Source: Streptomyces graminilatus
GTDB lineage: Bacteria; Actinomycetota; Actinomycetes; Streptomycetales; Streptomycetaceae
Length of the DNA stretch: 52,416 bases
Reading direction: 5' to 3'
Assembly (NCBI RefSeq): GCF_001418565.1
Contig: NZ_LIQQ01000124.1
Span: 1 to 52,416, forward strand
The translations under genes were made by a program, and so were the position numbers. Within the stretch, counting starts at the first letter, position 1; each line of letters starts with the position of its first letter. The notes beneath the pieces are model-generated. The model ran no database searches. It worked only from the letters and a program-made list of their open reading frames with translations, and was not told where the DNA came from. Shown in pieces: positions 51-46,427 of this stretch.

Positions 51-100
51 CCATCTGTTCATGTACTGGACACATGCGGCCGTCGCGACCCGCCGTCGAC

Positions 101-2989: not shown

Positions 2990-3001
2990 TAGCGTGGCCG
3001 C
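2990..3001 (+). promoter_or_regulatory. Leaderless -10 box of VOC gene
   Basis: TAGCGT (2990-2995), six bases, then ATG at 3002. There is no ribosome binding site. It is the same hexamer and spacing as before mmuM at 113 and the caspase-Hsp90 gene at 38647. Confidence 0.6.
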
Positions 3002-3523: not shown

Positions 3524-4131
3524 CCCGCGCGAGTCGCCGTATCGGCGAAGGGCACCCCCTGCCGGGCCAGGGCGAGGGCGCGCTGGAGGCGGAGGACACG
3601 GGCCAGCGTCTTGGGTCCGTAGCCGAAGGCGGCGAGGGAGCGGCGATGCAACTGGCGTGCGCTCAGGCCGAGTTCGTCGGCGGTACGGGCGACCGGGCGG
3701 CCTGCCCACAGGGCCACGACCAGGCCGGTGAGCAAGGGATCGGGCGGCGGCGCCAGAGCGGCCATACGCAGCGCCAGCTCCTCCAGCCCCGTCGCCGGGT
3801 CGGCCGCAGCGTGGACACGGGCCGCCAGGCGTCGCGCCTCGGCCGCTCCCCACAGCTCGGCCAACTCGACGCGCCGGTCCCGGAGTTCGTGCGCGGGCAC
3901 GCCCAGCAGGGCCGGCGCCGTGCCCGGGTGGAAGCGGACGCCCGCCCAGTGCGCGGGGGCGCCCTCGGGGACGTACGGGCGGGTGTCGGGTCCCGCGACC
4001 AGGAGCCGGCCCTCGCTCCACAGCAGGTCCATACAGCCGTCGGGCAGGACGGGCCATGTGTCGCAGGGCCCGGCCGGGGTCTTCGTCCACACCGTCGCGC
4101 CCGGCAGCAGGGAGGGCCGTTCCTCATACAC
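3445..4131 (-). CDS. AraC-family transcriptional regulator (DUF6597 type)
   Basis: DNA-binding regulator of 228 aa. The N-terminal half (YEERPS...PDGCMDLLW...GVRFHPG) matches the sensor-like region often found in this AraC subfamily. The C-terminal half carries two helix-turn-helix units: [17 protein letters not shown] and the [19 protein letters not shown] block typical of AraC. I place the start at the GTG at 4131, giving (M)YEERPS. A -10 box TAGCGT lies seven bases upstream on the minus strand, which implies leaderless translation; an in-frame GTG at 4167 would instead lie upstream of that promoter. Ligand and targets are unknown; the VOC gene it overlaps is a candidate. Confidence 0.87.
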
Positions 4132-4144
4132 GTACGACACGCTA
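4132..4144 (-). promoter_or_regulatory. Leaderless -10 box of AraC-type gene
   Basis: On the minus strand TAGCGT covers 4144-4139, followed by seven bases and GTG at 4131. This decides the start codon against the upstream in-frame GTG at 4167. Confidence 0.55.
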
Positions 4145-4307
4145 CGCCGCCCGGCGCCCTCGTCCACCTGGGCCCGTCGTCCGGATCACGCCGCCTTCGG
4201 GCCGGGGCGGCGCATCGGGGCCGGCGAAGGGGGGTGCGGCGCGGAGGGCGGGAGACGACACCGGTCCGCCACCGGGGGCCTGCGTGCCACACCTCGCACA
4301 CCTCGCA

Positions 4308-4460
4308 CGGCCCAGGCGCGCGCTGGAGGACGGCCGTGGGCCCGGAAACGGGAGAGGATCCGGCCGACGGGCGCGGACCCGGACGACGGCAGGGTGACAC
4401 CGATCCCGATCCGGGAGACTGCGTGGCGCCCCGCGCGGCCCAGGCGCGCCCTGGTGGACG
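4308..4460. repeat. Spaced 25-bp direct repeat near the broken gene
   Basis: A 25-bp stretch beginning CGGCCCAGGCGCG and ending GGACG occurs at 4308-4332 and again at 4436-4460, with two mismatches (23/25). The second copy runs into the pseudogene's LVDVVT stretch. It suggests a local duplication during decay of this region. Confidence 0.5.
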
Positions 4461-4724
4461 TCGTCACGGCCGCGCCGGTGTCCGGGGAGCGGTATGCGGG
4501 GCGGACGTTGGAGCCGACCGGGCCTCGGCTGCCGAGCTTCCGGGAGGCGGTCGCGGAGATCGCCGCGGTGACCGGCAGCGAACTGACGTGGAGGTCTTCG
4601 AGGGGCTCCTCGACGGCCACGGCTCCCGCCTCACGGACGTCGTCCGGCAGATCCTCGGCCGTGAGCCGCGCGAGTCTCCGACTTCGTACGGGAGAACGCG
4701 GCGGCCGGCGTCTGGAAGGCGTGA
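4385..4724 (+). pseudogene. Remnant of NmrA-like NAD(P)H-binding oxidoreductase (C-terminal part)
   Basis: Three reading frames in succession spell the C-terminus of the NmrA/NAD(P)-binding family. Frame one gives DGRVTPIPI...LVDVVTAAPV...YAGRTLEPTGPR..SFREAVAEIAAVTG. A shift near 4588 gives EVFEGLLDGHGSRLTDVVRQILGREPR. A second shift near 4669 gives VSDFVRENAAAGVWKA and the stop at 4722-4724. The linker normally found between the first two blocks appears to be missing. The N-terminal Rossmann half is not recognisable upstream; 4132-4384 has no convincing gene. Functional expression is not possible as read. Confidence 0.6.
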
Positions 4725-4737
4725 CACAGGACGGCGT

Positions 4738-4767
4738 GAGACCGGAAGGGGCGAGACCGGCAGGGGC
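4738..4767. repeat. Two tandem 15-bp repeats
   Basis: GAGACCGGAAGGGGC is followed directly by GAGACCGGCAGGGGC, with one mismatch. They sit between the broken oxidoreductase and the 3' end of the BrkB gene. Function is unknown; they may be replication slippage. Confidence 0.4.
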
Positions 4768-4799
4768 GGGCGGACATCACCGCACCGGCCCGTTCTCCG

Positions 4800-5957
4800 T
4801 CACTTGTCGGAGGGCGGGCCCTCCGCTGCCTTGGGCGTGCTCTTCGCGTGGGTCCGCAGCCTGGACGTCACGTCCTCCGGGGGCAGGAAGCGCGACCAGC
4901 GTTCCGGGAACTCGGAGGGCATGTCGCAGTCGTCGGGGTCATCGTCGTCGTGCTCGTGGGCGTGGATGGCGGCCATCCTGGCGACGTACTCGGCGGCCTC
5001 CTCCTCGCGGATCCGTTCGTTGGCGGCCCGTGCGGCGGCGGTGGAGGCGGCCGGCCAGACACGGTCGATCGCCGCGTTGACGGCGGCCCCGACGAGCACC
5101 GCGAACGCGGACACCCCGACCCACAGCAGGACGGCGACAGCGGCGGCGAGCGAGCCGTAGATCGTGGCGCCCTCGATCGTCTTGGTCAGGTAGATGCGCA
5201 GCAGGAAGCTGCCGAGCACCCACATCGCGAGGGCCATCAGCGCGCCCGGCACGTCCTCGATCCACGGTGAGCGCACCGGGACCGACACATGGAACAGCGT
5301 CGTCAGGAAGGCGATGGACAGCAGGATGACGACAGGCCAGTACAGGATCTGTACGAGCGTCTCCGACCAGGGCAGGACGTTGAGTACGGCGTCCGGGCCC
5401 GCCACCATCAGCGGCAGCGCGACCGAGCCGATCAGCAGCGCCACCACGAACAGTACGAAGGCGACGAGCCGGGTCTTGACGATGCCCCGGACGCCGTCGA
5501 GGCCGTACATCACGGTGATCGTGTCGATGAAGACGTTCACCGCGCGCGAGCCGGACCAGAGGGCGAACAGGAACCCTATGGAGATGACGTCGGGCCTGCC
5601 GCCCTTCATCACGTCGTTCAGGATCGGCTGGGCGATCTCGGTGACGCCCTTGTCGGACAGGACCGTGCGGGACGCCTCCAGGAGGTTGGTCTCCAGGCTG
5701 GTGATGGTGTCGGTGCCGGTCCAGTCGTCGACGTAGCCGAGCAGCCCGATCAGGCTCAGCAGCAGGGGCGGCACGGACAGCAGCGTGAAGAAGGCCGCCT
5801 CGGCCGCCAGACCCAGGATCCGGTACTCGATGCACGAGTTGACGGTGTCCTTGAGCAACAGCCAGGCGGTCCTGCGCTTGGAGACGTTCCGGTAGAGAAC
5901 GCGCGCGCGATGGAGTCGGCCGCTGGGGCTCTCGGGAAGTTCACTTGCTGCCTGCAC
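4800..5957 (-). CDS. YihY/BrkB family inner-membrane protein
   Basis: Integral membrane protein of 385 aa. After a basic cytoplasmic N-terminus come about six hydrophobic segments: near residues 48-75 (AAFFTLLSVPPLLLSLIGLLGY), 125-140, 165-190 (LVAFVLFVVALLIGSVALPL), 205-225, 240-262 and 270-300. The CIEYRILGLAAEAAFFTLLS start and the WSGSRAV motif are family hallmarks. The C-terminal tail (residues ~305-385) is charged, with a His/Asp-rich HEHDDDDPDD patch. The family's role is not settled; older links to serum resistance and RNase BN are not reliable. The GTG start is chosen because -10 TACCGT lies six bases upstream. Confidence 0.88.
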   Translation of the reverse strand: MQAASELPESPSGRLHRARVLYRNVSKRRTAWLLLKDTVNSCIEYRILGLAAEAAFFTLLSVPPLLLSLIGLLGYVDDWTGTDTITSLETNLLEASRTVLSDKGVTEIAQPILNDVMKGGRPDVISIGFLFALWSGSRAVNVFIDTITVMYGLDGVRGIVKTRLVAFVLFVVALLIGSVALPLMVAGPDAVLNVLPWSETLVQILYWPVVILLSIAFLTTLFHVSVPVRSPWIEDVPGALMALAMWVLGSFLLRIYLTKTIEGATIYGSLAAAVAVLLWVGVSAFAVLVGAAVNAAIDRVWPAASTAAARAANERIREEEAAEYVARMAAIHAHEHDDDDPDDCDMPSEFPERWSRFLPPEDVTSRLRTHAKSTPKAAEGPPSDK

Positions 5958-5969
5958 GCCCTAACGGTA
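5958..5969 (-). promoter_or_regulatory. Leaderless -10 box of BrkB gene
   Basis: On the minus strand TACCGT (5969-5964) is followed by TAGGGC and the GTG at 5957. It fits TANNNT-N6-start. No ribosome binding site is seen. Confidence 0.5.
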
Positions 5970-6051
5970 TCGGGCGGGCGCCACCCCTCTCACCCTCCGG
6001 TGCCTCGCTCAGGGCGCAGCGCCCGTACGCCGCTCTCTTCCCTCTGTTCCC

Positions 6052-6532
6052 GTGACGGCAGAAAACGATTTTCACCACCGGCGGCGGTACGCCCCGGGCC
6101 GGCCGCGGCTCGCTCGCCGCGGTCACCGCCCGCCCGCCGGCCGTCGGCCTGACCGGACTGCTGCTGGGCTGTGCCGCCAACGCGGGCGGACTCGAAGCCG
6201 ACGTCCTCCTGGCCTTCTCCGCCCTGCTGTTCCTGCTCGCCCTGCCCCCGCTGACCCTGCGGGCACGGACTCCGGCCTGCCTCGCTCTCGCCCTGGGCGT
6301 GGTCGCGCCGTTCCTCGTCCACCTGCTCCGGGGGGCGCTGCCCGAACCCGCCTTCGACGGTGCCCCGCTGTGCGGCGAGCACGACCTGGCGCCCCTGGCC
6401 TCCGGCGAAGGCGGCCCTCTCGCGGCCGGCCCGACCGCACCCGTCCGACCGGCCCGGCCTCGCCCGACCGGCGCCACGGCACGGGGTGCGGCGCGGCGGG
6501 AATCCGCCGACCGGCACCGTACCGGGGGATAG
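6052..6532 (+). pseudogene. Small membrane protein ORF, apparently frameshifted near its start
   Basis: A frame open from 6056 to the TAG at 6530-6532 has strong GC3 codon bias and two hydrophobic segments (VGLTGLLLGCAANAGGL; VLLAFSALLFLLALPPL), then LALALGVVAPFLVHLL and a Pro/Ala/Arg-rich tail. It has no good start. A GTG at 6052 lies one frame off. Removing one base near 6068 would join VTAEN to VFTTGGG and give a ~159-aa protein. It may be a true frameshift, a sequencing error, or a shorter gene from GTG 6299. No family recognised and no clear ribosome binding site. Its stop codon overlaps the promoter of the next gene. Confidence 0.4.
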
Positions 6533-6541
6533 ATTTCCCGT
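6530..6541 (+). promoter_or_regulatory. Leaderless -10 box of acyl-CoA dehydrogenase gene
   Basis: TAGATT (6530-6535), six bases, then ATG at 6542. The TAG doubles as the stop codon of the preceding open frame. Confidence 0.55.
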
Positions 6542-8176
6542 ATGGCTGCCAGCACCCACACCGTGACCAACCAGGTGCCTCCCCTGGTCGGATATGACCT
6601 GTTCACCGCCGACAAGGCCCTGGTCGCGGCCGTCGAGAGGCACCTGGACCCCGGGCTTCTGGACGGAGCCCGGGACGACCTGTCCACGCTGGGCCGGTCC
6701 GCCGGATCCGCGCAGGTGCAGGAATGGGGAGCGCTCGCCAACGACAACCCCCCGAAGCTGCGGACGCACGACCGGTACGGCAACCGGATCGACGAGGTGG
6801 AGTTCCATCCGGCCTGGCACCGGCTGCTCGGCAAGGGCGTCTCGGCCGGGATGACGGCGGCCTGGACGCGGCCGGGCGGGCATGTGCGGCGGGCCGCGGC
6901 GTTCGTGGTCTGGTCCCAGGCCGAGGCGGGCCACGGCTGCCCGCTGTCGATGACCCACGCGGCGGTGCCCGCGCTGCGCACCGACCCGGCACTCGCCGCC
7001 GAGTGGGAGCCCCGGCTGACGTCCACCGTCTACGAGAAGGAGCTCTGGCCGGCGGACCGGAAGGCCGGCGCGCTCTTCGGGATGGGCATGACGGAGAAAC
7101 AGGGCGGCAGCGACGTACGGACCAACACGACCGTCGCGAGGCCGCTCGCCGAGGACGGTACGTACAAGCTGACGGGCCACAAATGGTTCTGCTCGGCGCC
7201 CATGTCGGACGGCTTCCTGGTGCTGGCCCAGGCGCCCGGCGGGGTGACCTGCTTCCTGCTGCCCCGGGTCCTCGCGGACGGTACGCGCAACGAGTTCCGG
7301 ATCCAGCGGCTCAAGGACAAGCTGGGCAACCGGTCCAACGCCTCCGCCGAGGTCGAGTTCGACGGGACGTGGGTGCGCCGGGTCGGGGACGAGGGGCGCG
7401 GGGTGCGCACCATCATCGAGATGGTGTCGGCGACGCGGCTCGACTGTGTGCTGGGGGCCGCCGCGCTGATGCGGCAGGCGGTCGCCCAGGCCGTGCACCA
7501 CTGCACGTACCGGGAGGCGTTCGGCGGGAAGCTCGTCGACAAGCCGCTGATGCGCAACGTACTCGCCGATCTGGCCCTGGAGTCGGAGGCGGCGACGACG
7601 CTCGCGCTGCGGCTGGCCGCCGCCTACGACGACGGCGGCGAGCGGGAACGGGCGTTCCTGCGGCTCGCGTTGCCGGCCGCCAAGTACTGGGTGACCAAAC
7701 GCTGCACCCCACTGGTGGTGGAGGCGTCCGAGTGCCTGGGCGGCAACGGCTACGTCGAGGAGTCGGGCATGCCCCGGCTGCTGCGCGAGTCGCCGCTCAA
7801 CTCGATCTGGGAGGGCGCCGGGAACGTACAGGCGCTGGATGTGCTGCGGGCGATCCAGCGGGAGCCCGCCGCCCTCAACGCGTTCCTCCAGGAGGTCGGG
7901 CAGGCACGCGGAGCCGACCACCGGCTGGACGGCGCCATCAAGGACCTGCTGACCGAACTCGCCGACCTGGCGGGCATCGAGGGCCGGGCGCGGCGGCTGG
8001 CCGAGCGGATCGCGCTGGTGCTCCAGGGATCGCTGCTGGTCCGGTTCGCGCCCCCGGAGACCGCCGACGCGTTCTGCGCCTCCCGGCTGGGCGGCGACTG
8101 GGGCAGCGCCTTCGGCACCCTCCCGCACACCCTGGACCTGGCGTCGGTCGTGGAGCGGGCCCGGCCGGTCGCGTAG
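6542..8176 (+). CDS. AidB-like acyl-CoA dehydrogenase
   Basis: Flavoprotein of the acyl-CoA dehydrogenase superfamily, 544 aa, close in layout to the DNA-alkylation-response protein AidB. Signs of this subfamily are the length (ordinary dehydrogenases are ~380 aa), the MGMTEKQGGSDVRTNTT FAD/substrate block near residues 180-200, LTGHKWFCSAPMSDGFLVLAQ, ASECLGGNGYVEE and the conserved RESPLNSIWEGAGNV. The last ~120 residues form the extra helical region that in AidB binds DNA. Whether it protects DNA or oxidises a CoA ester cannot be told from sequence. It is transcribed alone from a leaderless promoter and followed by a strong terminator. Confidence 0.9.
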   Translation: MAASTHTVTNQVPPLVGYDLFTADKALVAAVERHLDPGLLDGARDDLSTLGRSAGSAQVQEWGALANDNPPKLRTHDRYGNRIDEVEFHPAWHRLLGKGVSAGMTAAWTRPGGHVRRAAAFVVWSQAEAGHGCPLSMTHAAVPALRTDPALAAEWEPRLTSTVYEKELWPADRKAGALFGMGMTEKQGGSDVRTNTTVARPLAEDGTYKLTGHKWFCSAPMSDGFLVLAQAPGGVTCFLLPRVLADGTRNEFRIQRLKDKLGNRSNASAEVEFDGTWVRRVGDEGRGVRTIIEMVSATRLDCVLGAAALMRQAVAQAVHHCTYREAFGGKLVDKPLMRNVLADLALESEAATTLALRLAAAYDDGGERERAFLRLALPAAKYWVTKRCTPLVVEASECLGGNGYVEESGMPRLLRESPLNSIWEGAGNVQALDVLRAIQREPAALNAFLQEVGQARGADHRLDGAIKDLLTELADLAGIEGRARRLAERIALVLQGSLLVRFAPPETADAFCASRLGGDWGSAFGTLPHTLDLASVVERARPVA

Positions 8177-8188
8177 GGCCTGTTGTGT

Positions 8189-8228
8189 GGCGGGGGTGGT
8201 GCCGCGCCGACACGGCACCACCCCCGCC
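8189..8228 (+). terminator. Strong terminator after acyl-CoA dehydrogenase gene
   Basis: A perfect 16-bp inverted repeat, GGCGGGGGTGGTGCCG at 8189-8204 and its complement at 8213-8228, with an 8-nt loop, starts 12 bp after the stop codon. No T-run follows. Confidence 0.8.
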
Positions 8229-8311
8229 CAACTGCCCCGCATCGATCGGGAGCACGGACGCCGCGCGGCGGCGTCGCCCAAGTTTCAGCCACCGCACGGC
8301 GGTTCACCAGG

Positions 8312-8329
8312 GTTGCAAGGGGTTGCAAC
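8312..8329. promoter_or_regulatory. Candidate operator upstream of GAF regulator
   Basis: GTTGCAAGGGGTTGCAAC: two TTGCAA palindromes separated by GGGG, giving both a direct and an inverted repeat with 7-bp arms. It lies ~90 bp before the regulator's start in an otherwise featureless leader, a good position for autoregulation. Confidence 0.45.
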
Positions 8330-8417
8330 TTGCTGGCATATGTGTGCGGACTGTGGTTCTCCGCGCCTCGGGGGCGGCACCATGAGAAATCGAGTCAATA
8401 CGGGTCGGGAGGACAGC

Positions 8418-9728
8418 GTGGCGAATCCGCCGATGGACGTCGGGCGGCTTGTCGCCCGTGACGGGGCGCAGGCGGCTCGGCTGCTCAGTGACGTGCGCGC
8501 GGCCCGCCTCACCGGACAGCGGCCGCTCCTGGCGCCCCGGCCCGTGATCGACCAGTCCTGGGACCGGATGCTGCGCGGCGGTGTCGACCCGGACCACGAC
8601 TTCCGGACCGGGCTGCTGACCCGCGAGGAGCTGGAGCGCCGGCGTGCGGCCTCCCGGCTGCGGCATGTCCTGCCGGTGCTGCGGCAGGGGCTGTTGTCGG
8701 TCGCGGACATCACCCGGCACATCATGGTCGTCGCCGACGAGGACGGCCGGGTGCTGTGGCGCGAGGGCTGTTCTCCGGTGCTGCGCAAGGCCGACTCGAT
8801 CGGGTTCGAGCCGGGCGCCGACTGGGCCGAGGGCGTCGTCGGGACCAACGGTGTGGGCACTCCGGTGGTCGCCCGGCGCCCCGTACAGGTCTTCGCCTCC
8901 GAGCACTTCGTACGGTCCCACGCCACCTGGACGTGCACGGGCGCCCCGATCACCGATCCGCGTGACGGCACGCTGATCGGCGTGGTGGATGTGAGCGGCC
9001 CGCTGGAGACCATGCACCCGGCCACGCTCGCCTGGGTCGACTCGGTCGCCAAGCTCGCCGAGGCCCGGCTGCGGGAGTTGCACCACCGGTCGCTGGAGCG
9101 GCTGCGTACGGCGGCGGCGCCGGTGCTGGCGCGGCTCGGCGGGCGGGCCCTTGCGGTGGACCGGGACGGCTGGACGGCAGCGGTCACCGGTCTGCCGTAC
9201 ACGAGCCGGGTCGCGCTGCCCAAGTCGCTGTCGCCGGGCCGGTGTTGGCTGCCTTCGCTGGGGCTGTGCGCGGTGGAGCCGCTGGCGGGCGGCTGGCTGG
9301 TCCGCGTCGCCGCCGAGCCCGAGGGACGCGGCGACTCTCGGGTCGTGCTGGATCTGCGCGGGCCGCGCCGCTGGTCGGTGGCCGTGTCGGGCCCGGCGGG
9401 CTCCTGGGCGCACGAACTGAGTCCCCGGCACGCCGAGTTGCTGTATCTCCTGACCCTGCACCCGGCCGGCCGCAGTGCGGCGGGCCTGGCCGACGACCTG
9501 TTCTCGGACCCGGCCCGCACGGTGACCGTGCGCGCGGAGATGTCGCGGATACGCCGGTATCTCGGGTCGTTCCTGGAGCACCGTCCGTACCGCTTCGGCG
9601 AGGACACGGAAGTCACCGTCCTCCTGCCGGACGATCCCCGCGATCTGCTGCCCCACTCGACGGCCCCGTCCGTGGCCCGGGAACGGGTCCCGGGGTCCGG
9701 CGGGCGGGCGGCGGACGACGCACAGTGA
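8418..9728 (+). CDS. GAF-domain transcriptional regulator (AcoR N-terminus-like)
   Basis: Regulatory protein of 436 aa. Residues ~90-240 are a GAF sensor domain of the type seen in acetoin regulator AcoR (SWDRMLRGGVDPDHD, VADEDGRVLWREG, GTNGVGTPVVARRPVQVF, GVVDVSGPLETMHP). The sigma54 AAA+ module of AcoR is absent. The C-terminal part ends in a winged-helix-like region (LSPRHAELLYLLTLHPAG, VTVRAEMSRIRRYLG). In actinobacteria such proteins often control alcohol or aldehyde dehydrogenase genes; none is adjacent here. I choose GTG 8418 because GGGAGGA lies five bases upstream; an ATG at 8382 in frame has only a weak site. Confidence 0.85.
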   Translation: MANPPMDVGRLVARDGAQAARLLSDVRAARLTGQRPLLAPRPVIDQSWDRMLRGGVDPDHDFRTGLLTREELERRRAASRLRHVLPVLRQGLLSVADITRHIMVVADEDGRVLWREGCSPVLRKADSIGFEPGADWAEGVVGTNGVGTPVVARRPVQVFASEHFVRSHATWTCTGAPITDPRDGTLIGVVDVSGPLETMHPATLAWVDSVAKLAEARLRELHHRSLERLRTAAAPVLARLGGRALAVDRDGWTAAVTGLPYTSRVALPKSLSPGRCWLPSLGLCAVEPLAGGWLVRVAAEPEGRGDSRVVLDLRGPRRWSVAVSGPAGSWAHELSPRHAELLYLLTLHPAGRSAAGLADDLFSDPARTVTVRAEMSRIRRYLGSFLEHRPYRFGEDTEVTVLLPDDPRDLLPHSTAPSVARERVPGSGGRAADDAQ

Positions 9729-37791: not shown

Positions 37792-38544
37792 ATGACCGCC
37801 CGCTCGGCGCCCGACCGGCTGCTGTCCGTACTCGGCGCCTTCGACCACGACCACCCGGCGCTGTCCCTCACGGACATCAGCCGGCGGGCCGGGCTGACCC
37901 TCACCACCACGCACCGACTCGTGGGGGCCCTCACCGACTGGGGCGCCCTGGAACGGGACGACGACGGCGTCTACCACGTGGGCCTGCGGCTGTGGGAGGT
38001 CGCGGCGCTCGCCCCGCGCGGGCTGGCCCTGCGGCAGGTCGCGCTGCCGTATCTGGAGGACCTGTACGAAGCGACGCACGAGAACGTGCAGTTGGCGGTA
38101 CGGGACGGCGGCGAGGTCGTCTACATCGAGTGGCTGTCGGGCCGTTCGGCGGTCGGCGTGCACATCAGGGTCGGCGCCCGCTGGCCGCTGCACGCCACGG
38201 GCGTCGGCCTCGCCCTCCTCGCCCACGGCGACCCGGCACTCCAGCAGCAGTACTGCGAGGGCCCGTTGGCCGCCTTCACCCCGCACACGATCACCGACCC
38301 GGGACAGTTGCGCCGTGTCCTGGCCGAAGTCCGGCGCACGGGCGTGGCGGTGAGCAGCCGTCAGGTGACCGAGGACGCGCTGTCGGTGGCGGCCCCTGTG
38401 CACGGTCCGGGCGGCACGGTGACCGCCGCGGTGTCGGTCGTGGTGCCCCGGGCGGACGCCCAGGTACCGGCACTGGTGCCCGCGGTACGGCTGGCGGCGC
38501 GGGGGATCTCACGGGCGCTGGGGTGGCGGCCGGACGGTCGGTGA
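37792..38544 (+). CDS. IclR-family transcriptional regulator
   Basis: Regulator of 250 aa with an N-terminal winged helix (RLLSVLGAFDHDHPALSLTDISRRAGLTLTTTHRLVGALTDWGALERDD) and the IclR effector domain (EDLYEATHENVQLAVRDGGEVVYIEWLSG, PLHATGVGLALLAH, AVSSRQVTEDALSVAAPVHGPGG). Ligands are usually small organic acids. It follows the MarR gene by 37 bp in the same direction with GGGAG upstream, so two regulators flank the acyl-CoA type operon; which genes it controls is unknown. Confidence 0.9.
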   Translation: MTARSAPDRLLSVLGAFDHDHPALSLTDISRRAGLTLTTTHRLVGALTDWGALERDDDGVYHVGLRLWEVAALAPRGLALRQVALPYLEDLYEATHENVQLAVRDGGEVVYIEWLSGRSAVGVHIRVGARWPLHATGVGLALLAHGDPALQQQYCEGPLAAFTPHTITDPGQLRRVLAEVRRTGVAVSSRQVTEDALSVAAPVHGPGGTVTAAVSVVVPRADAQVPALVPAVRLAARGISRALGWRPDGR

Positions 38545-38591
38545 GCGGGCCGGGTGTGCGCGGTCCGCCTTTCTCCGAGCTGACAACAACT

Positions 38592-38603
38592 CACTTATCA
38601 GTG
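38592..38603. promoter_or_regulatory. Candidate operator before the caspase-Hsp90 gene
   Basis: CACTTATCAGTG: 4-bp arms around TATC in an AT-rich patch (38581-38610), ending 31 bp before the -10 box. It is in the right place for an activator or repressor. Weak by itself. Confidence 0.3.
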
Positions 38604-38634
38604 TGAAACGGCCCCCGCCGGGCCGAAGTCGCGC

Positions 38635-38646
38635 TAGCGTCCCCGC
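38635..38646 (+). promoter_or_regulatory. Leaderless -10 box of the caspase-Hsp90 gene
   Basis: TAGCGT (38635-38640), CCCCGC, then GTG at 38647, the same hexamer and spacing as at 101 and 2990. No ribosome binding site is present. Confidence 0.6.
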
Positions 38647-41600
38647 GTGACGATCAGACGATCCGCTCTCCTCATCGGTGTGGGCGACACCCCACGTGCC
38701 GCGTCGCGGTTCGGTCCACTGACGGAGGCGGTGGCGTGCGACCTCGAAGCGATGAGTACGCAGCTTGCCGCGTCAGGATATTCCGTCCGCACCCTTGAGC
38801 AAGGCGACGACGGACTGGTCAAGAAGAACGACATCACCACGGCGTTGGAGCAGGCGGCCCAGGAGGATTGCGACCTGCTGCTCGTGTACTTCACAGGGCA
38901 CGGGGTGCATGTGATGGGCGCCGACTATCTGGTTCCCGGCGATGCCGTTGCCCCGGGGCCAGGGCTTGCGTGGTCGCCGGGGCAGATCGAGTCGCTGCTC
39001 TCCCTCGACATGACGCGCTACCTGAGGGGATGCCGGGCCCCATCGGTCATCTACGTGGTGGACGCCTGCCGTGACAGCGGCCCGGACGACGACTCTGCGG
39101 GCTTTGGCGCCGCCACCGTCCACGCCCCGTCGACGCGTCTCGCGCTACTGGTCGGCTGCGACCGCGGGCAACGGTGCCATTTCGACGACACGGGAAGTCA
39201 CTTCACCCGTGCGCTCTCCGAAGCCCTGGGCCCCTACGCCCCGCAGCGCACCCTCGACGCGGTGTTCCGCCAGGCCAAGCAGCGCACCGCCGACTACGCG
39301 GTGCGCTCCGGTGAGCAGCACCCCCAGGTGAGCTGCGCGCCCGGCGACGAGGCGCTCTCCGCCTTCCCCGAGCTGTGCGTGGGCACCGAGATCCCGCTGC
39401 GCTGGCGCGAGGACGTGGAGAAAGCCCCCTTGTGGAGCGCCGGACCGGGCGAGGACGGCCCCGACTCGGCCATGCGCGAGCGCATCGCCGAGTTCGCGCG
39501 TGCGTGCGCCATCTCCGTCCTCAAGGACCGGCGTCGCTTCGACGACCCCTGGAACGACCCCGGGCTGCCCACCCGCACCGTGCGCCGTGTGATGCCGGAG
39601 CTGCTGCGGGGCGGCTCCGACCGCTCTCCGGTGGAGACCGGCCTGCTGGCGGCGCTGCCGTTCCTGCGGGAGGCCATGTGGGCTCGCAAGCTCAGCCGCC
39701 TGGCCGACGCGGACCCCTTCGACCTCGATCCGGTAGGCCCGGACAGCAACCGTTCCAAAATGCGCACCGAGCTGCAATACGTACACGAGAGCCATCCCCA
39801 GCTGCTGCGCAAGGCTCGCGGCCACGGCCGTCGGGGCGAGACCGAGTCGCACCGGGCGCTGGCGGCCTGGCTGGCCCATCGCTGGGTGGCCGAGCAACTC
39901 GTCGACCTGCCCGACTCCGGCGGCCAGGAACTGATCGGACTGCTGGCCAGGGCACTGCTCGGTCCGGGGCAGGATCATGAGGAGCAACTGAACGAAGTCT
40001 ACTGGCTGTTGGCGAACAGTATCCGGTTCCTCGCGGACGACCCCGTCGATCTGCCCTCGTACAACCGGCATCTGGCAGGAGCACCCACAGCCCTCACCAC
40101 CGCGGAGGAACGGTGCCAGGTACGGCTGTGGAGCGTGTTGGGTCTGGTCCGCCTCGGCGGTCTCCTCGCCGCCGACGTACGGCAGTTCCCCGACGTACTG
40201 CCCGATCACGTGGGTGTGGCGGACCCGGTCCGGCCGCCCGATGTCGTACGCATCCTGCACGACCAACTGGAGTGGGCCAACGAGGGCGACGACCTGCATC
40301 TGAATATGCTGTGCCCGCATCCAGCCCTCCACGAGGGGCTGACGGATCTAGCGCTGCGCGCGGACCGCGCGCTGCGCGCCCTGCACGATGCCCGGGAGCA
40401 GCGGCGCAGCGACTTCCCGGACCGGCTGCCGGGCCGGGTCACCACCCGCGATCTGCTCCCCGCGCGCCGGCCGCAGTCGGGCCAGTCGGAGGAACGAGCC
40501 TATTCGACGCCGCTGTTGCGCTTCGCACTGGCTCAGGACGAGATTCGTGAACTACTGATGGGGCATCAGCTGTACGGGGACCGGTCTCTGGCCGTGAGGG
40601 AGTTGTACCAGAACGCCGCTGACGCCTGCCGCTACCGCGAGCTGAGGTGGAAGTACCTCAGCCGCACGGGCGGTGCCCCCTCCAACTGGACCGCCGAGAT
40701 CCGCATCACCCAGGGCCGCGAACCGTCGAAGGACGGCCGCCCGGGCCGGGCGTACATCGAGTGCCGCGACAATGGAGTCGGCATGGGCCGGGCCCAGTTG
40801 GAGCAGACGTTCAGCCGGGCGGGCCGCCGCTTCTCCCAGACCCGCGCGTTCCGCCAGGAGCAGGCCCGCTGGCTGGAGGAGGACCCGGCCCTGCGCCTCT
40901 ATCCCTACAGCCGGTTCGGCATCGGCGTACTCAGCTATTTCATGATCGCCGACGAGGTCATCCTGGTGACCCGGGAAGTGACCGCGAAGGGTTCGATCGC
41001 CGAAGCGCTGACCGTCGACATCTCGAGCAGCAGCGGTCTGTTCCGGATCCGGGGGTACGAGGACAAGGACGGCGGCGATCCGATGCGGGACGGGGGTACT
41101 CGGGTCCGGCTCATGCTGAGCGAGCCCGAGTGGGACAACGAGTTGGTTTCCGCGCTGGAGGTGCTGAAGCATCAGGTCCGGCTGAGCGAGTACGAACTGG
41201 TCCTCACGGAGGAGGACAACACCCCTCTCGTGTGGCCTGCGGGGGAACTGCGGCATCCCGCGCCGAAGGACGACCCCGATCCCGTTCCACCGCGCACCAC
41301 CACCCGGGGCTCTGTCTGGTGGGTGACCAACCAAGGCATGGTGCTCGCCGACGGCATCGTCACCTCGCAGGAACCCTTCGGGTATGTCGTCAATCTGACC
41401 GGCCCGCAGGCGCCCCAACTCAGCGTCAATCGCAACAGCCTGCTGAGCTGGGACCGCCCATGGGCCAGGGAGCAGGTGGAGCGGGCCACAGCCGACCTGC
41501 CCGAGTGGGCGGGGCTGGACCTCGAATGGCTGTGGCGGTTGGAGAGTTCAGACATCGGGCTCGCCCGGGTGGCGGGCACGGAGCTGGCCGGACGAGGGCT

Positions 41601-43743
41601 CGTGCTGCCCATCTACCGGAACTCGTCGTACCGTCTGCCGGACGTCTCCCTGGACCACGTCGGCTGGTTCGCCGACGACAGGGATTTCCTGCCGCAGAAT
41701 CTCAACTCAGGGCCGCCCGGCGGAAATGACGTCACTCGCCCGTGGCGTCTGGCGGTTCTGCGCGGCCAGGGCATCCAGGTCGACGACACTTTCAGCTCGC
41801 AGGCGGTGCTGCCCAAGGACCTGTCCGGGCATCCTGTTCCGCGCCCGGGTGACAGTAGCCTCATCGCGCAGGCCTCGGGCGATGCCCGCTCCCTGGTCGG
41901 GTACGCCTTCGACCACCAGCGGACCATCACCGATTCCCTTCGCGACCTGCGACGTTACGCCATACTCGGGCCAAGACTCCGGGTGCCACCTGTCGCGGTG
42001 GACAGGATGCCCGATCTGGAGTTCGTGCCCGAACGCGTCGACCGGGACCTGCTGGAGTGGATGTACACCTGGAACCAGCCGGGCCGGGCGGAGCGGCAGC
42101 CAGCAGCGGGAGCGCTGCTGTCCATCTCGGCCTACAGCGGCCTGGACATCGGCCACCTGCTGAAGCGCTGCCACCGGTACGCACCGCTGGGCCTGAAGGT
42201 GCCCGCCGTGCCCGCTGCCCGCATCTTCACCCGGGTCGCGACGACCAGGGACGCCGAGCTCCTGTCCGGATGGTCGGAGAACGACCGTACGTACTGCGAG
42301 GAGGGCCTGCCCAGAGATGTCCTGCCCTTCCACATCGCCCGGCTGGCAGAGCAACTCGGTCTCACCAGCGCCGAAACACTGGCAAAGCTGCGGGCCTGGG
42401 AGTTCCTCGGCTACCGGCTTCCCTCGGAGGACCAGTTGCTCGCGTCTGCCCCCAGCGCCGCCCAGTGGAATCTCTTCCGCCGCTTCTGGAACCCGCGGGA
42501 GGACAGGTCGGCTCCGAGCCTCCCCTCCTTGCTGATCGAGGCCACACGTCGCCAGATGACGATCACCGCTCTCCTCCAGTCCGTCGGCGACCTCGCCGGA
42601 CAGGCGGGCATGCGTCTGCCCGACCTGGACGGAGAGGCGGCCGGACTTCCCGCGATGGAGGACAACGACCTGAAACTCCTCACTGTCAACGAGGACCTCA
42701 ACACTCCGCTGCCCGATCGTTCGATCTCCATCGATTTCTTGGCCCTCTGTCACGCGCCTGGCGGTCAGCTGCCAGGCCTTGGAGGCGACCTGGACGAGGA
42801 ATCCTGGGAGGTCTTCGTCTCGCGAGTGCGCCGGGTGGCGGCACTCGGCATGGCTGTTCCCGACGACCTCGAACCCCTTCGGCACTGGGTGGAACTCTCG
42901 CCCCGCAACCGCATCGCTCTCCTCGCCAGCAGCATCGATCCAGCGGTTCCGTGGACGGCGGCCACCCTCGTCTCGGTGGCGGGCGAGCTGAAGGAGTCAC
43001 TGGGTGACAGCCTGAGCCGGCTGGCCGCTCACGGGCCCAAGCTCGGGAAGCACGTACCGAGCCTTCCCGACGGGGCCACCCTGCTCAGCCCGAGCACGGC
43101 CGAATCCGACCTGATGACGGAACTCAGGGGACTAGAAACCGGTGAGCCTCTCCAAACCGTCTGGATCGACATCACACCGTTCGATCTGGCGAGGTACGCC
43201 TGCAACGCTGCCCTCACCGTCGACGAGGCCCTCGACCGGCTGGCCCCCTACCGCGCCCTCGGCGCTCAGCTCCCCGAACTCACCGACGAGCAGCGCGTCC
43301 TGGTGACCGGGCTCAAGCCCGGCCGGCGCGACCTCCTCGCCCTGTCCGATGCCATGGCCGGCGAGAAGCCACGCGACCCTTCCCCCGTCAAGCCCCTGGA
43401 ACTCGTAGCCCTGGCCGCCCGTCTTGGCCGATCCGCCCAGCAGGTGCACGAGCGACTGAGCCGCTACGAGCCTCTCGGCGTCGTCATGGAGGTCCCGGAC
43501 GCCCCCGATGTCCTCCCTCTCTGGCAGGACCTCATCCTCCTGACCGAGGGCCTCAACGGACAGGAACCCGCCCTGCAAGGCACCGTCTCCGCGGCACGGA
43601 TCGAGGCGCTGGCCCGCGAACTGGACTCCACCAGTGACTGGGTGACAGGGCGCCTGCTCGTCTACGCGGAAATGTTCCAGCTGCACATCGCCCCGGCCGA
43701 GAGTCCCGCCAACCCGAATGAACCCCAGGAGCAGCCGTCTTGA
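38647..43743 (+). CDS. Caspase - Hsp90-like ATPase - winged-helix-repeat protein (predicted conflict/immunity device)
   Basis: A 1698-aa cytosolic protein with no signal or membrane segment. Residues 1-245: caspase-like protease, with His85 in YFTGHGVH and Cys141 in VVDACRDS, both in expected contexts. 260-620: helical, unassigned. 630-830: Hsp90/GHKL ATPase with Glu652/Asn656 (AVRELYQNAADACR), DNGVGM at 708-713, FGIGVLSYFMIAD from 757 and a GGTRV motif. 830-1080: middle region (QLSVNRNSLLSWDRPW). 1080-1680: about nine divergent repeats ending in 'RY..LG..LP', read as winged helices. Proteins joining caspase and Hsp90 ATPase modules are known from comparative genomics of bacterial conflict systems; the repeats would sense or scaffold, the ATPase gate, the protease execute. 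It overlaps the next gene by TTGA. A/T at third positions looks commoner than in flanking genes. Confidence 0.85.
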   Translation: MTIRRSALLIGVGDTPRAASRFGPLTEAVACDLEAMSTQLAASGYSVRTLEQGDDGLVKKNDITTALEQAAQEDCDLLLVYFTGHGVHVMGADYLVPGDAVAPGPGLAWSPGQIESLLSLDMTRYLRGCRAPSVIYVVDACRDSGPDDDSAGFGAATVHAPSTRLALLVGCDRGQRCHFDDTGSHFTRALSEALGPYAPQRTLDAVFRQAKQRTADYAVRSGEQHPQVSCAPGDEALSAFPELCVGTEIPLRWREDVEKAPLWSAGPGEDGPDSAMRERIAEFARACAISVLKDRRRFDDPWNDPGLPTRTVRRVMPELLRGGSDRSPVETGLLAALPFLREAMWARKLSRLADADPFDLDPVGPDSNRSKMRTELQYVHESHPQLLRKARGHGRRGETESHRALAAWLAHRWVAEQLVDLPDSGGQELIGLLARALLGPGQDHEEQLNEVYWLLANSIRFLADDPVDLPSYNRHLAGAPTALTTAEERCQVRLWSVLGLVRLGGLLAADVRQFPDVLPDHVGVADPVRPPDVVRILHDQLEWANEGDDLHLNMLCPHPALHEGLTDLALRADRALRALHDAREQRRSDFPDRLPGRVTTRDLLPARRPQSGQSEERAYSTPLLRFALAQDEIRELLMGHQLYGDRSLAVRELYQNAADACRYRELRWKYLSRTGGAPSNWTAEIRITQGREPSKDGRPGRAYIECRDNGVGMGRAQLEQTFSRAGRRFSQTRAFRQEQARWLEEDPALRLYPYSRFGIGVLSYFMIADEVILVTREVTAKGSIAEALTVDISSSSGLFRIRGYEDKDGGDPMRDGGTRVRLMLSEPEWDNELVSALEVLKHQVRLSEYELVLTEEDNTPLVWPAGELRHPAPKDDPDPVPPRTTTRGSVWWVTNQGMVLADGIVTSQEPFGYVVNLTGPQAPQLSVNRNSLLSWDRPWAREQVERATADLPEWAGLDLEWLWRLESSDIGLARVAGTELAGRGLVLPIYRNSSYRLPDVSLDHVGWFADDRDFLPQNLNSGPPGGNDVTRPWRLAVLRGQGIQVDDTFSSQAVLPKDLSGHPVPRPGDSSLIAQASGDARSLVGYAFDHQRTITDSLRDLRRYAILGPRLRVPPVAVDRMPDLEFVPERVDRDLLEWMYTWNQPGRAERQPAAGALLSISAYSGLDIGHLLKRCHRYAPLGLKVPAVPAARIFTRVATTRDAELLSGWSENDRTYCEEGLPRDVLPFHIARLAEQLGLTSAETLAKLRAWEFLGYRLPSEDQLLASAPSAAQWNLFRRFWNPREDRSAPSLPSLLIEATRRQMTITALLQSVGDLAGQAGMRLPDLDGEAAGLPAMEDNDLKLLTVNEDLNTPLPDRSISIDFLALCHAPGGQLPGLGGDLDEESWEVFVSRVRRVAALGMAVPDDLEPLRHWVELSPRNRIALLASSIDPAVPWTAATLVSVAGELKESLGDSLSRLAAHGPKLGKHVPSLPDGATLLSPSTAESDLMTELRGLETGEPLQTVWIDITPFDLARYACNAALTVDEALDRLAPYRALGAQLPELTDEQRVLVTGLKPGRRDLLALSDAMAGEKPRDPSPVKPLELVALAARLGRSAQQVHERLSRYEPLGVVMEVPDAPDVLPLWQDLILLTEGLNGQEPALQGTVSAARIEALARELDSTSDWVTGRLLVYAEMFQLHIAPAESPANPNEPQEQPS

Positions 43744-44072
43744 GTACCCCTCCCCACAATCAGGACCTGCCTTACGCCCAGGTCGACGCCGGCCTCGTCA
43801 ACGACACCTTCCAGGTCACCGCGGACCCTGCCGGGGTCACCGTCACCGGCATCTGCCCTCGCTGTGACGGTCGTACCTCGACCACACTCCCGCTGGGAAT
43901 CGCGGGCACGAAAGGCCTGTTCAGCTCGAAGGACAGGGTGCCGACCCCGGCCGAGCAGGCCGATGCCAAAGCCGCCGAGACGTTCTTCTGCGAATGCGGT
44001 TTCGCGCACACAGGGCAGCCGGAGAACACTCACTTCGAGGGCTGCGGCGCCCAGTGGAAGGTCAAGCCATGA
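43740..44072 (+). CDS. Cysteine-rich small protein of the caspase-Hsp90 cassette
   Basis: Soluble 110-aa protein. Cys39 and Cys42 (GICPRC) with Cys84, Cys86, His90 and Cys102 (FFCECGFAH; EGCGAQW) could form a zinc-ribbon-like site with a long central loop. The N-terminal ~35 residues look like a beta-rich segment (NDTFQVTADPAGVTVTG). The TTG start at 43740 overlaps the stop of the upstream gene and has AGGAG eight bases before it; the end overlaps the next gene by ATGA. This strict coupling says all three products are needed together. No known family recognised; adaptor or substrate of the caspase are options. Confidence 0.8.
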   Translation: MSTPPHNQDLPYAQVDAGLVNDTFQVTADPAGVTVTGICPRCDGRTSTTLPLGIAGTKGLFSSKDRVPTPAEQADAKAAETFFCECGFAHTGQPENTHFEGCGAQWKVKP

Positions 44073-44671
44073 GCGCCGGCGTCGACCGCCGCTGGGCCGA
44101 ACTCGCCCGGGAACTCGAGTTCAGCCAGCTCGACCAGCTCCGCAAGCAGGCGGAGGGCTGGCGCAACGGACTGGTCGGGCTCACCGCTCTGGTCACCGTC
44201 CTCGCCGTCCTCAAGGGGCGCGACGACCTGACCAACCTGCCCTCACCCTGGCAGACCGTCGCGACCATACTGCTGGGCGCGGCCTATCTCTTCCTCGTGG
44301 CAGGTTCGCTGGTCACCGTACGCGCCTCCTACGGAAAGCCCGGTGACCTGCTTCATCTCGGCGGGCAGTCGCTGCGCAAATGGACCCTCACCGAGATCCG
44401 GCGGGTACGTCGGGCGCTGTACCTCAGCATGGCCGCCTTCGCCCTTGGCATGACTCTCGTAGCGGCCGCCGTCGGTGTCTCCTGGACCCACACCGAAGAG
44501 TCCACCGCCGATCTCGTCAAGGTCACCACCGCCACAGCTGACTTCTGCGGGCAGCTCGTGTCGTACACCCCTTCAAACGTCACCCTCCTCCCCACCACCG
44601 GAGACACCGCCAAGCCCCTTGTCCTCCGCACCGCACAGGTCCGGAAGATCACCCCGGCGACCGGCTGCTGA
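44069..44671 (+). CDS. Three-TM membrane protein of the caspase-Hsp90 cassette
   Basis: A 200-aa protein. A charged helical N-terminus (RRWAELARELEFSQLDQLRKQAEGW) is followed by hydrophobic segments at ~34-49 (LVGLTALVTVLAVLKG), 65-83 (ATILLGAAYLFLVAGSL) and 117-137 (LYLSMAAFALGMTLVAAAVGV). A ~60-residue C-terminal part holds Cys160 and ends in Cys200 and may lie outside the membrane. No known family recognised. In a protease-armed cassette a small membrane protein is a plausible effector that damages the membrane once cleaved or released, or the anchor for the large protein. Both are inference. The ATG overlaps the previous stop. Confidence 0.82.
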   Translation: MSAGVDRRWAELARELEFSQLDQLRKQAEGWRNGLVGLTALVTVLAVLKGRDDLTNLPSPWQTVATILLGAAYLFLVAGSLVTVRASYGKPGDLLHLGGQSLRKWTLTEIRRVRRALYLSMAAFALGMTLVAAAVGVSWTHTEESTADLVKVTTATADFCGQLVSYTPSNVTLLPTTGDTAKPLVLRTAQVRKITPATGC

Positions 44672-44700
44672 TCCCTCCCGGACGCCGATGCCCACCCCGG

Positions 44701-44865
44701 ACGGCCGGCCCGCGGAGCCCGGCATCCGCGACCTTCGTCGGGTACGTCAGGCCGGAGACCGACTCCCCCTCCCGCGTCGCCACGCCGGTGTCGATCAACT
44801 TCACGGAAGCTGTCACCGATCCGGCCGCGGTCCAGCAGGCGATCACCGTGACTGCCGCTGAATTC
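44701..44865 (+). pseudogene. Remnant of an L,D-transpeptidase Ig-like domain
   Basis: One frame reads ASATFVGYVRPETDSPSRVA, then TPVSINFTEAVTDPAAVQQA and ITVT, closely matching the N-terminal Ig-like domain of actinobacterial L,D-transpeptidases (pattern 'VGVGMPV.V.F...V.D.AAV..A..VT'). It then runs out into unrelated sequence. The lipobox, second Ig domain and the HGT...SHGC catalytic region are absent. It is a short relic next to the caspase-Hsp90 cassette. Confidence 0.5.
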
Positions 44866-44916
44866 CCGGTCCCGCCTCTTGACGACCGGTGCCACCGGGA
44901 GCACATTGGGCCCACT

Positions 44917-44932
44917 TTGAGAGCGCTCTCAA
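44917..44932. promoter_or_regulatory. LacI/CebR-type operator before GH16 gene
   Basis: TTGAGAGCGCTCTCAA is a perfect 16-bp palindrome 53 bp upstream of the start codon. Its GAGCGCTC core is that of operators bound by LacI-family repressors such as CebR, which control cellulose/glucan genes in Streptomyces. It suggests glucan-oligosaccharide induction. Confidence 0.65.
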
Positions 44933-44984
44933 GCAATCTCGAAGGCGCCCCCACACCCCCCACCCCGTACCCGAAGAGGCACCC

Positions 44985-46427
44985 ATGAGGGACACTTCAG
45001 GCACCTCCCCCACGTCAGGTCCGCCCGTCGGACGCCGTCCCCTGCGTCGCGGCCCCCTGCGCCGCGCCCCCCTGCGTCGCGCGCTCGTCGCCATAGGTGC
45101 CGTGATCAGCCTCGCGGCAGCCGCCGTGTCGGTGGCCAGGGCGGACGCGCCCGCGCCTCCGTCCGGCTGGACGCAGGTCTTCCTCGACGACTTCAACGGC
45201 GCCGCCGGGACCGGCGTCTCCACCGCCAACTGGCAGTACTCCACCGGGACTTCGTATCCGGGCGGCCCCGCCAACTGGGGCACCGGCGAGATCGAGAGGA
45301 TGACGAACAGCACCACCAACGTCTCGCTCGACGGCAACGGCAACCTCCGGATCACCCCGGTGCGCGACTCCGCCGGGAACTGGACCTCGGGCCGCATAGA
45401 GACCAACCGCACCGACTTCCAGCCCCCGGCCGGTGGCAAGCTGCGCGTCGAGGCCCGTCTCCAGGTACCGAACGTCACCGGCGCCGCCGCCCTCGGCTAC
45501 TGGCCCGCGTTCTGGATGCTCGGGGCGCCCTACCGGGGCAACTTCCAGAACTGGCCGGGCGTCGGCGAGCTGGACATCATGGAGAACACGCAGGGCCGCA
45601 ACACCATCTGGGGCACCATGCACTGCGGCACCAGCCCGGGCGGCCCCTGCAACGAGACGACCGGCATCGGTGGTACGACCACCTGCGCCGGCACGACCTG
45701 CCAGGCCGGTTTCCACACGTACCGTATGGAGTGGGACCGCTCGGTGAGCCCGGAGGCCATCCGCTTCTACGTCGACGGCACCAACTACCACACGGTGACC
45801 GCGAACCAGGTCGACGCCACGACCTGGGCCAACGCCACGAACCACGGCTTCTTCGTCATCCTCAACGTGGCGATGGGCGGCGCCTTCCCGGCGGCGTTCG
45901 GCGGTGGCCCGGACGCCAATACCGTCTCCGGGCGACCGATGGTCGTCGACTACGTGCAGGTGCTCCGGTCGACCACCGGCGGCGGCGATCCGACCACGCC
46001 CCCGCCGGCCGGGACCCGGGACGCGTACAGCGCGATCCAGGCGGAGTCGTACGACAGCCAGTCGGGCACCAGTACGGAGAGCACCACCGATACCGGCGGC
46101 GGCCAGAACATCGGCTCGCTGGCCAACGGCGACTGGGCGCTCTACCGGGGCGTCGATTTCGGCTCCACGGCTGCCACCCAGTTCGTCGGCAGGGTCGCGA
46201 GCGGGGCGAACGCGGGCGTGAGCGGGCTGGTCGAGGTGCGCCTCGACAGCCGTACGAGCACACCGATCGGCAGTTTCTCGATCGGCAGCACGGGCGGCTG
46301 GCAGCGCTGGCGGACGGTCCCGGCGAACATCAGCGCCGTCACCGGCACCCATGACGTCTATCTGACCTTCACCAGCGGCCAGGCGCAGGACTTCGTGAAC
46401 GTGAACTGGTTCACCTTCGGTCACTGA
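44985..46427 (+). CDS. Secreted GH16 beta-glucanase with C-terminal CBM6-like module
   Basis: Secreted endo-beta-1,3(4)-glucanase, 480 aa. The signal peptide has an unusual basic start built from LRRxP repeats (RRPLRRGPLRRAPLRRA), then AIGAVISLAAAAVSVARADA. GH16 domain ~60-325 with the catalytic ELDIME motif: Glu195, Asp197, Glu200. A short Pro/Thr/Gly linker leads to a CBM6-like beta sandwich (~345-480: IQAESYDSQSGTSTE, IGSLANGDWALYRGVDFG, DVYLTFTSGQAQDFVNVNWF). It degrades fungal or plant beta-glucan outside the cell. GAAGAGG precedes the ATG. Single gene with its own operator and terminator. Confidence 0.94.
   Translation: MRDTSGTSPTSGPPVGRRPLRRGPLRRAPLRRALVAIGAVISLAAAAVSVARADAPAPPSGWTQVFLDDFNGAAGTGVSTANWQYSTGTSYPGGPANWGTGEIERMTNSTTNVSLDGNGNLRITPVRDSAGNWTSGRIETNRTDFQPPAGGKLRVEARLQVPNVTGAAALGYWPAFWMLGAPYRGNFQNWPGVGELDIMENTQGRNTIWGTMHCGTSPGGPCNETTGIGGTTTCAGTTCQAGFHTYRMEWDRSVSPEAIRFYVDGTNYHTVTANQVDATTWANATNHGFFVILNVAMGGAFPAAFGGGPDANTVSGRPMVVDYVQVLRSTTGGGDPTTPPPAGTRDAYSAIQAESYDSQSGTSTESTTDTGGGQNIGSLANGDWALYRGVDFGSTAATQFVGRVASGANAGVSGLVEVRLDSRTSTPIGSFSIGSTGGWQRWRTVPANISAVTGTHDVYLTFTSGQAQDFVNVNWFTFGH

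Follow-up and report, generated by a model that had tools for sequence, protein, structure and literature searches.

The analysed DNA, a stretch of 52,416 nucleotides referred to here as the window, comes from Streptomyces graminilatus (RefSeq assembly GCF_001418565.1, contig NZ_LIQQ01000124.1) and contains a cassette of three overlapping genes encoding a large protease with an Hsp90-type ATPase, a small zinc-ribbon-like protein (ZnR) and a membrane protein. An initial annotation, made by a model from the letters and open reading frames (ORFs) alone, had described these genes as a candidate antiphage or programmed-death system. All three ORFs were found where it had placed them, and the overlaps that it reported, TTGA between genes 1 and 2 and ATGA between genes 2 and 3, could both be read in the sequence:

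38647..43743, + strand: gene 1, caspase - iHD-CE - Hsp90 (N and M domains) - wHTH repeats; GTG start, 1698 aa
43740..44072, + strand: gene 2, small zinc-ribbon-like protein (ZnR); TTG start, 110 aa
44069..44671, + strand: gene 3, membrane protein with C-terminal small beta-barrel; ATG start, 200 aa

A scan of species genomes with gene 3 produced 54 named loci, belonging to Streptomyces, Kitasatospora, Streptacidiphilus, Micromonospora and Acrocarpospora. A ZnR ORF was situated directly upstream of gene 3 in all 54, while gene 1 was intact beside the pair in 49, being upstream in 47 and downstream in two (L043, L044). In the other five, gene 1 was broken (L047, L064), reduced to a C-terminal remnant (L058) or lay past the contig end (L038, L075). 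The three genes therefore travel together, and the small genes have been retained, rather than lost, in most relatives. The 4-base overlap of genes 2 and 3 was found again in 51 of the 54 named loci, and so the overlaps are not due to chance; that of genes 1 and 2 occurred in 39 of 47 loci, a count for which the start codon nearest the stop was chosen, which favours overlaps. In four loci (L046, L049, L060, L062) a second full caspase-iHD-Hsp90 gene started approximately 1.2-1.3 kb past gene 3, and in three of these an ORF of about 340 aa lay between gene 3 and the second gene.

The domains and putative active sites of gene 1 were positioned as follows:

38656..39336, + strand: caspase (Peptidase_C14) domain, residues 4-230 (Pfam, E = 7.6e-16)
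38899-38901 and 39067-39069, + strand: codons of His85 and Cys141, catalytic dyad of the caspase domain
39403..40464, + strand: iHD-CE domain (PF24401), residues 253-606 (Pfam, E = 1.4e-68)
40555..41604, + strand: Hsp90-type ATPase, N domain at ~637-828 and M domain to ~986, with Glu652, Asn656, Asp708, Gly758/760 and Arg929
43516..43656, + strand: wHTH-HSP90_Na-assoc (PF24410), best-scoring of three stretches, residues 1624-1670 (Pfam)

Both PF24401 and PF24410 exceeded their cut-offs (232.2 and 77.7 bits against 27 and 23), the latter with three C-terminal stretches (E = 8.3e-22). Judged by sequence, gene 1 is a clear member of the iHD-CE / wHTH-Hsp90 architecture class, which has already been described; that Pfam names both iHD-CE and wHTH-HSP90_Na-assoc means that the domains of the large protein were recognised by others. 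For the Hsp90 ATPase, Pfam gave a weak match (E = 0.015-0.023) and NCBIfam a clear one (HtpG, residues 637-828, 2.8e-13); both an N-domain ATP site and an M domain were present. Gene 1 is not a full-length HtpG chaperone by the NCBIfam equivalog (49.3 bits against a cut-off of 371), for which the match ended at profile position 178 of 614. The only PADLOC match to gene 1 was a weak, generic caspase (E = 1.2e-4). His85, Cys141, Glu652, Asn656, Asp708 and Arg929 were invariant in 54 of 54 aligned gene 1 proteins. An Arg of the M domain has a role in Hsp90, and Arg929, read by eye from the motif, is presumably its counterpart. The initial annotation had listed the caspase-like protease with its dyad, an intact-looking Hsp90-type ATPase and winged-helix-like repeats, and each of these parts was borne out; the iHD-CE domain between caspase and ATPase had gone unnamed.

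Gene 1 has the His-Cys dyad and caspase fold of Peptidase_C14, from which protease activity is predicted. The structure predicted for residues 1-244 resembled a caspase-7 entry (root mean square deviation, rmsd, 2.1 A over 193 residues), and in a profile alignment the GHG and D-x-C stretches fell on those of MALT1; the predicted fold and the alignment are thus both consistent with His85 and Cys141 lying together. Asp139, two residues before Cys141, has its counterpart in an Asp of the paracaspase MALT1, the D-x-C of gene 1 being aligned with D-M-C. In paracaspases and metacaspases, an Asp two before the catalytic Cys accompanies Arg or Lys at P1. Within iHD-CE, C556, H558 and H562 (C-x-H-x3-H; window 40312-40332, residues 556-562) were near-invariant and may constitute a metal site.

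A survey of 295 genomes of the genus, which overlaps the named loci in part (e.g., L234/L032, L241/L061), returned 62 copies of gene 3. Of these, 26 lay by a caspase-iHD-CE-Hsp90 gene (an iHD-CE match within ~8 kb; the window and 25 others), 21 lay by a CHAT protease and 15 were close to neither. C14 caspase, iHD-CE, Hsp90 part, ZnR and gene 3 were all present in 25 of 25 iHD-CE-adjacent loci that were fetched. The CHAT domain (PF12770) adjoined the pair within ~1 kb in its 21 loci, standing upstream of the pair in some and divergent in others. A further set of 37 gene 3 copies was taken from genomes of the genus outside the first survey; here CHAT was beside 16, C14 with iHD-CE beside 11, both kinds beside one (L185) and neither beside nine. 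Several C14 copies in this set came from species already represented among L032-L085, and the new information therefore resides in the CHAT copies. Background CHAT matches numbered 62 in 18 genomes and 120 in 31, or ~0.5% per 12 kb, which is, if anything, too high, since all of these genomes hold the pair; the presence of CHAT beside 16 of 33 copies had P = 7e-28, assuming independent and uniform places. One Cys and two His columns were invariant in 15 of 15 aligned CHAT domains, and scans of CHAT proteins neighbouring the pair yielded no Hsp90 family. The locus with both kinds (L185, genome G738) comprised, at 1494-9150 in gene 3 orientation, a caspase-SF1-type helicase (AAA_11/AAA_12), a TPR-CHAT protein, ZnR and gene 3. 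What is new here is that the ZnR-gene 3 pair is shared with CHAT, another caspase-fold family. At five loci (L116, L118, L127, L134, L141) a short CHAT protein, or none, preceded the pair and a protein of 760-1010 aa followed it; the latter was TPR-like in some cases, and the arrangement looks like a split sensor.

Ten iHD-CE genes that had no gene 3 in their vicinity were also fetched (L146-L155). A caspase match was absent from nine (L146-L154), and neither ZnR nor gene 3 occurred in the surrounding stretch in any of the nine. Pfam, applied to six of the ten (L155 among them), identified iHD-CE and wHTH in each but did not find Peptidase_C14 in any. The nine caspase-less genes without the pair indicate that it follows the caspase and not the Hsp90 body, with one exception (L155). 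A quick tree of 74 gene 3 sequences placed 22 C14 copies and three protease-less copies in one supported group (98), with the CHAT copies in two groups, such that C14 and CHAT require a single switch. The pair thus stays with one class of protease, and the switch seems to be an ancient one.

Neither gene 2 nor gene 3 matched a Pfam or NCBIfam family above the curated cut-off, and PADLOC returned nothing for either at E = 1. A CHAT-type gene 3 query retrieved 88 proteins, of which those named among the matches listed were hypothetical, uncharacterized or membrane proteins, besides one SLA1 homology domain protein. Among the Pfam matches of the three cassette proteins, taken up to E = 1, there was no gasdermin. 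The suggestion that the cassette is a distinct subtype with its own small partners was supported.

Gene 2 had been noted as a Cys-rich small protein, and a regular pattern underlies this: there are knuckles at C39-x2-C42 and C84-x-C86, together with H90 and C102. The elements CPxC, CxC, H and C were conserved in 53-54 of 54 C14-type ZnRs and in 30 of 30 CHAT-type ZnRs, the latter having been selected by CPxC, CxC and GCG (this motif filter retained 30 of 36). CPxC, CxC, H, P and GCG were common to both types. The conserved knuckles suggest that gene 2 is zinc-ribbon-like, with putative metal binding.

Gene 3 had been called a three-transmembrane protein. Just two segments of the protein encoded in the window (64-82, 119-137) passed the hydropathy threshold, besides one weaker hydrophobic segment, and this protein was one of 53 among 85 gene 3 sequences that had two segments only; three long helices were nonetheless predicted, followed by a five-stranded barrel, in a model from 49 sequences (predicted local distance difference test, pLDDT, 79; predicted template modelling score, pTM, 0.55). 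The barrel carries C160 and C200, which were present in 54 of 55 C14-type copies each, and in 34 and 33, respectively, of 36 CHAT-type copies. Residues A28, W31, R32, G50, A86, G89, W139 and the C160-G161/C200 pattern were common to both kinds. Positive-inside counts favoured a cytoplasmic N-terminus in 31 of 31 sequences with three hydropathy segments. Fold matches were weak (no Foldseek E below 0.001, with helical matches inside the common range of the tool), and no claim about the fold is made beyond the small barrel. Two candidate identities were not retained. As a SLATT membrane effector, gene 3 scored 20 bits against 41, and two of 25 family members matched at E = 0.01. The mechanosensitive channel MscS has three transmembrane helices and then an Sm-like barrel, which lies inside the cell; the barrel of gene 3 is suggestive of a small MscS, but alignments gave an rmsd of ~23 A and the predicted topology was opposite.

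One position separated the two types of ZnR:

43911..43913, + strand: Lys58 codon of ZnR, candidate scissile site

Among 54 C14-type ZnRs this residue was K in 53 and R in one, while in the 30 CHAT-type ZnRs there was no clear preference (R in 8, P in 5, G in 5 and A in 4 among the residues listed). It occurs in a variable loop between the two cysteine knuckles. Conservation in the C14-type only, combined with the paracaspase-like D-x-C of the caspase, makes Lys58 a candidate cut site; it was chosen after inspection of class-specific columns, and has the status of a hypothesis rather than a test.

The cassette is accessory, with empty sites, and is located among metabolic genes. Besides SDR, G6PD and 6PGD genes nearby, its flanks were:

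37792..38544, + strand: left flank, IclR regulator; ortholog present in empty-site relatives
44889..46427, + strand: right flank, GH16 + CBM6 enzyme; ortholog present in empty-site relatives

In two relatives (G009, G013) the genes for IclR and GH16 were present with 82-84% DNA identity and lay 0.6-0.8 kb apart, and no gene 3 or iHD-CE match was found, while in six other relatives that were fetched 4.6 to 12.4 kb separated IclR from GH16. The interval (window 38545-44888) varied in length and gene calls among these loci (L198-L203), and is thus a variable site. The gene 3 family was found in at least 52, and iHD-CE in at least 45, of the 295 genomes, both counts being lower bounds for which the best few candidates were scored. 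With this distribution and two empty sites, the cassette is not a core element of all Streptomyces at one locus. A gene 1 match starting in the caspase domain and running for at least 800 residues was found in 8 of 61 genomes, S. graminilatus included, which has a single iHD-CE gene. The same genome contained a second caspase-like stretch (G000:C207:8563-9084; a 589-aa frame, 29% identity, E = 5.8e-5).

The pair is likely to be the part that damages the membrane in a suicide switch set off by a protease, and the switch may act against phages. That the whole cassette is a protease-triggered membrane effector system, the caspase acting on ZnR to free gene 3, we consider about an even bet. In outline, the part of gene 1 made up of wHTH, iHD-CE and Hsp90 would act as the sensor of a trigger, perhaps a phage, and ATP-driven closing of the Hsp90 clamp would bring caspase domains together. 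The active caspase would then act on ZnR, perhaps cutting after Lys58 in the loop between the knuckles. Upstream translational coupling is usual for inhibitor-toxin pairs; ZnR would be the coupled inhibitor here, with gene 3 as the effector and not the other way round. Once freed, gene 3 would damage the membrane of its own cell, leading presumably to growth arrest or death; the pair would thereby be both substrate and output of the protease. This mechanism is suggested by the constancy of the pair beside variable sensor bodies (Hsp90-wHTH, TPR, helicase), by the intact active sites, by the coupling of ZnR to gene 3, and by the published rule that the substrate of a CHAT protease is commonly encoded near it (PMC9729208).

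Several observations weigh against this interpretation. Neither a C14 nor a CHAT protease was in the stretch at 14 gene 3 copies (L120, L126, L130, L135-L137, L141, L144, L145, L224, L226-L229), while at L131 the CHAT gene was ~4 kb from the pair, hence its inclusion among the 15 of 62 without a close protease. Several of the copies without a close protease were fragments or contained stops. Neither protease was found at 9 of the 37 further copies (L173, L180, L184, L186-L188, L230, L232, L233), nor at seven distant ones, from another family of the order (L189) and from elsewhere in the phylum (L190-L195), a set that left out the two weakest phylum matches (G651, G406); the CHAT and C14 models were built from these loci, and would miss a far protease. 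The ZnR model, which was partly trained on loci later scanned with it, found none at L187, L188, L191-L195, L226-L229 and L231-L233. Conversely, L155 (4334-9037, minus strand) is an iHD-CE-Hsp90 gene without the pair that retains a diverged N-terminal caspase (GHG at 92, DAC at 141), missed by Pfam. The single C14/CHAT switch on the gene 3 tree gives no sign of repeated swapping. Lys58 may be structural, and of the 54 C14-type ZnRs only 41 have G at position 59. A sensor role would also be compatible with the extracytoplasmic barrel of gene 3 and its conserved cysteines. Finally, the nearby defence genes that the initial annotation had thought worth seeking were not apparent: the flanks were metabolic, no defence island was visible, and a PADLOC comparison (1e-8) revealed no clear enrichment in 70 of the 187 proteins flanking the named loci relative to 70 controls, taken from 154 proteins in 20 arbitrarily chosen stretches of six genomes. 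In the flanks 9 PADLOC families were matched, with 1 to 4 of the 70 proteins per family; the controls matched 31, and the 25 families listed had one protein of 70 each.

Alternatively, gene 3 might be a membrane sensor, reporting envelope damage or phage entry through a ZnR adaptor to a protease with substrates elsewhere. The two near-invariant cysteines of the barrel, C160 and C200, its position outside the cell by positive-inside counts (31 of 31 sequences with three hydropathy segments) and the reading of the published EACC1-caspase system as membrane sensor plus caspase (PMC7159879, in part) are all in keeping with this. But the large proteins already carry varied sensor-like bodies (Hsp90 with wHTH, TPRs, a helicase), beside which a constant partner looks more like an output, and we regard the sensor role as somewhat unlikely. 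A stress or developmental programme of multicellular actinobacteria, in which Hsp90-gated proteolysis prunes cells or remodels the membrane, would agree with a set of named matches made up almost entirely of Streptomyces and other actinobacteria, often of mycelial habit, and with metabolic flanks that showed no clear excess of defence genes over controls (70 proteins each). It is nevertheless improbable, because patchy presence (52 of 295 genomes), empty sites, and tandem and broken copies are better suited to a conflict system. In a third reading, which the presence of both Hsp90 domains (N and M) and the intactness of the ATP-site residues and of the Arg in the M domain could suggest, the Hsp90 part would serve the small partners as a chaperone and the caspase would be a quality-control protease, with no killing involved. 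This is very improbable, since the pair stands beside CHAT proteins in which no Hsp90 family was found and is missing beside the nine caspase-less Hsp90-iHD-CE genes, both of which tie it to the protease.

Protease-gated effectors are an already known kind, as gasdermin systems (PMC9612521), Craspase (PMC9729208) and canu (PMC12799240) demonstrate; these papers, and PMC7159879, are each cited from a part of their text. Canu consists of caspase-gated pro-nucleases, and resembles the cassette in that a MALT1-like caspase is encoded with the effector that it switches on (activation being a proposal here), and in that an effector family pairs with more than one protease family. It differs in having an MBL-fold pro-nuclease for effector, rather than a membrane protein with a zinc-ribbon-like partner, and its caspase is unlike the present one, which bears iHD-CE, Hsp90 and wHTH parts. 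Bacterial gasdermin systems similarly place a caspase-like or other protease beside a membrane-acting protein, but the membrane protein of the cassette, gene 3, is helical, and the candidate cut site lies not in it but in the separate small protein ZnR. In type III-E Craspase, TPR-CHAT acts with Csx30/RpoE; a TPR-CHAT protease occurs likewise in the sister loci, and the neighbouring gene of Craspase is a substrate, as is proposed for the neighbours here, although these are ZnR and gene 3 and not Csx30/RpoE. The two-gene EACC1-caspase system shares an N-terminal caspase, a long variable C-terminal part, a membrane partner and an origin in actinobacteria of multicellular habit, but EACC1 is a 5' gene with one transmembrane helix, whereas the partners here are 3' and different. 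Gene 1 does not belong to that type by NCBIfam caspase_w_EACC1 (39.3 bits against a cut-off of 140) and its 5' neighbour is the IclR regulator; the word 'hsp90' does not appear in the text of the EACC1 paper. The iHD-CE / wHTH-Hsp90 proteins (PF24401, PF24410) are the class to which gene 1 belongs, from which it departs in that nine of ten fetched without gene 3 nearby also lacked a caspase match.

Literature searches, which mostly did not reach subscription journals, listed no paper on the three-gene set or on the pairing of ZnR with gene 3, and among the matches listed there was none on the link of this pair to two caspase-fold families or on the candidate cut site; nor was any output of caspase-Hsp90 proteins of this class found described there. 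More tentatively, and with some doubt, we propose that ZnR-gene 3 may be a new bacterial module for execution, in which an inhibitor restrains a membrane killer that is related neither to gasdermins nor to pro-nucleases. Two caspase-fold families (caspase-Hsp90 and TPR-CHAT) would release this killer by cutting a zinc-ribbon guard, and the one module would serve many sensors. If the pair is indeed the output, it would provide a concrete protease-substrate-effector chain for caspase-Hsp90 proteins, link them to CHAT proteases through one shared device, and add to the known executioners one that acts on membranes and is distinct from gasdermins and nucleases. The role of an Hsp90 clamp on an immune-type protease could then be read out directly, as cutting of the 110-aa ZnR at a specified residue.

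A further gene, of ~460-470 aa, was located directly downstream of gene 3 in six of the named loci (L037, L038, L039, L041, L051, L078), and may reflect either synteny or a fourth member of the cassette.

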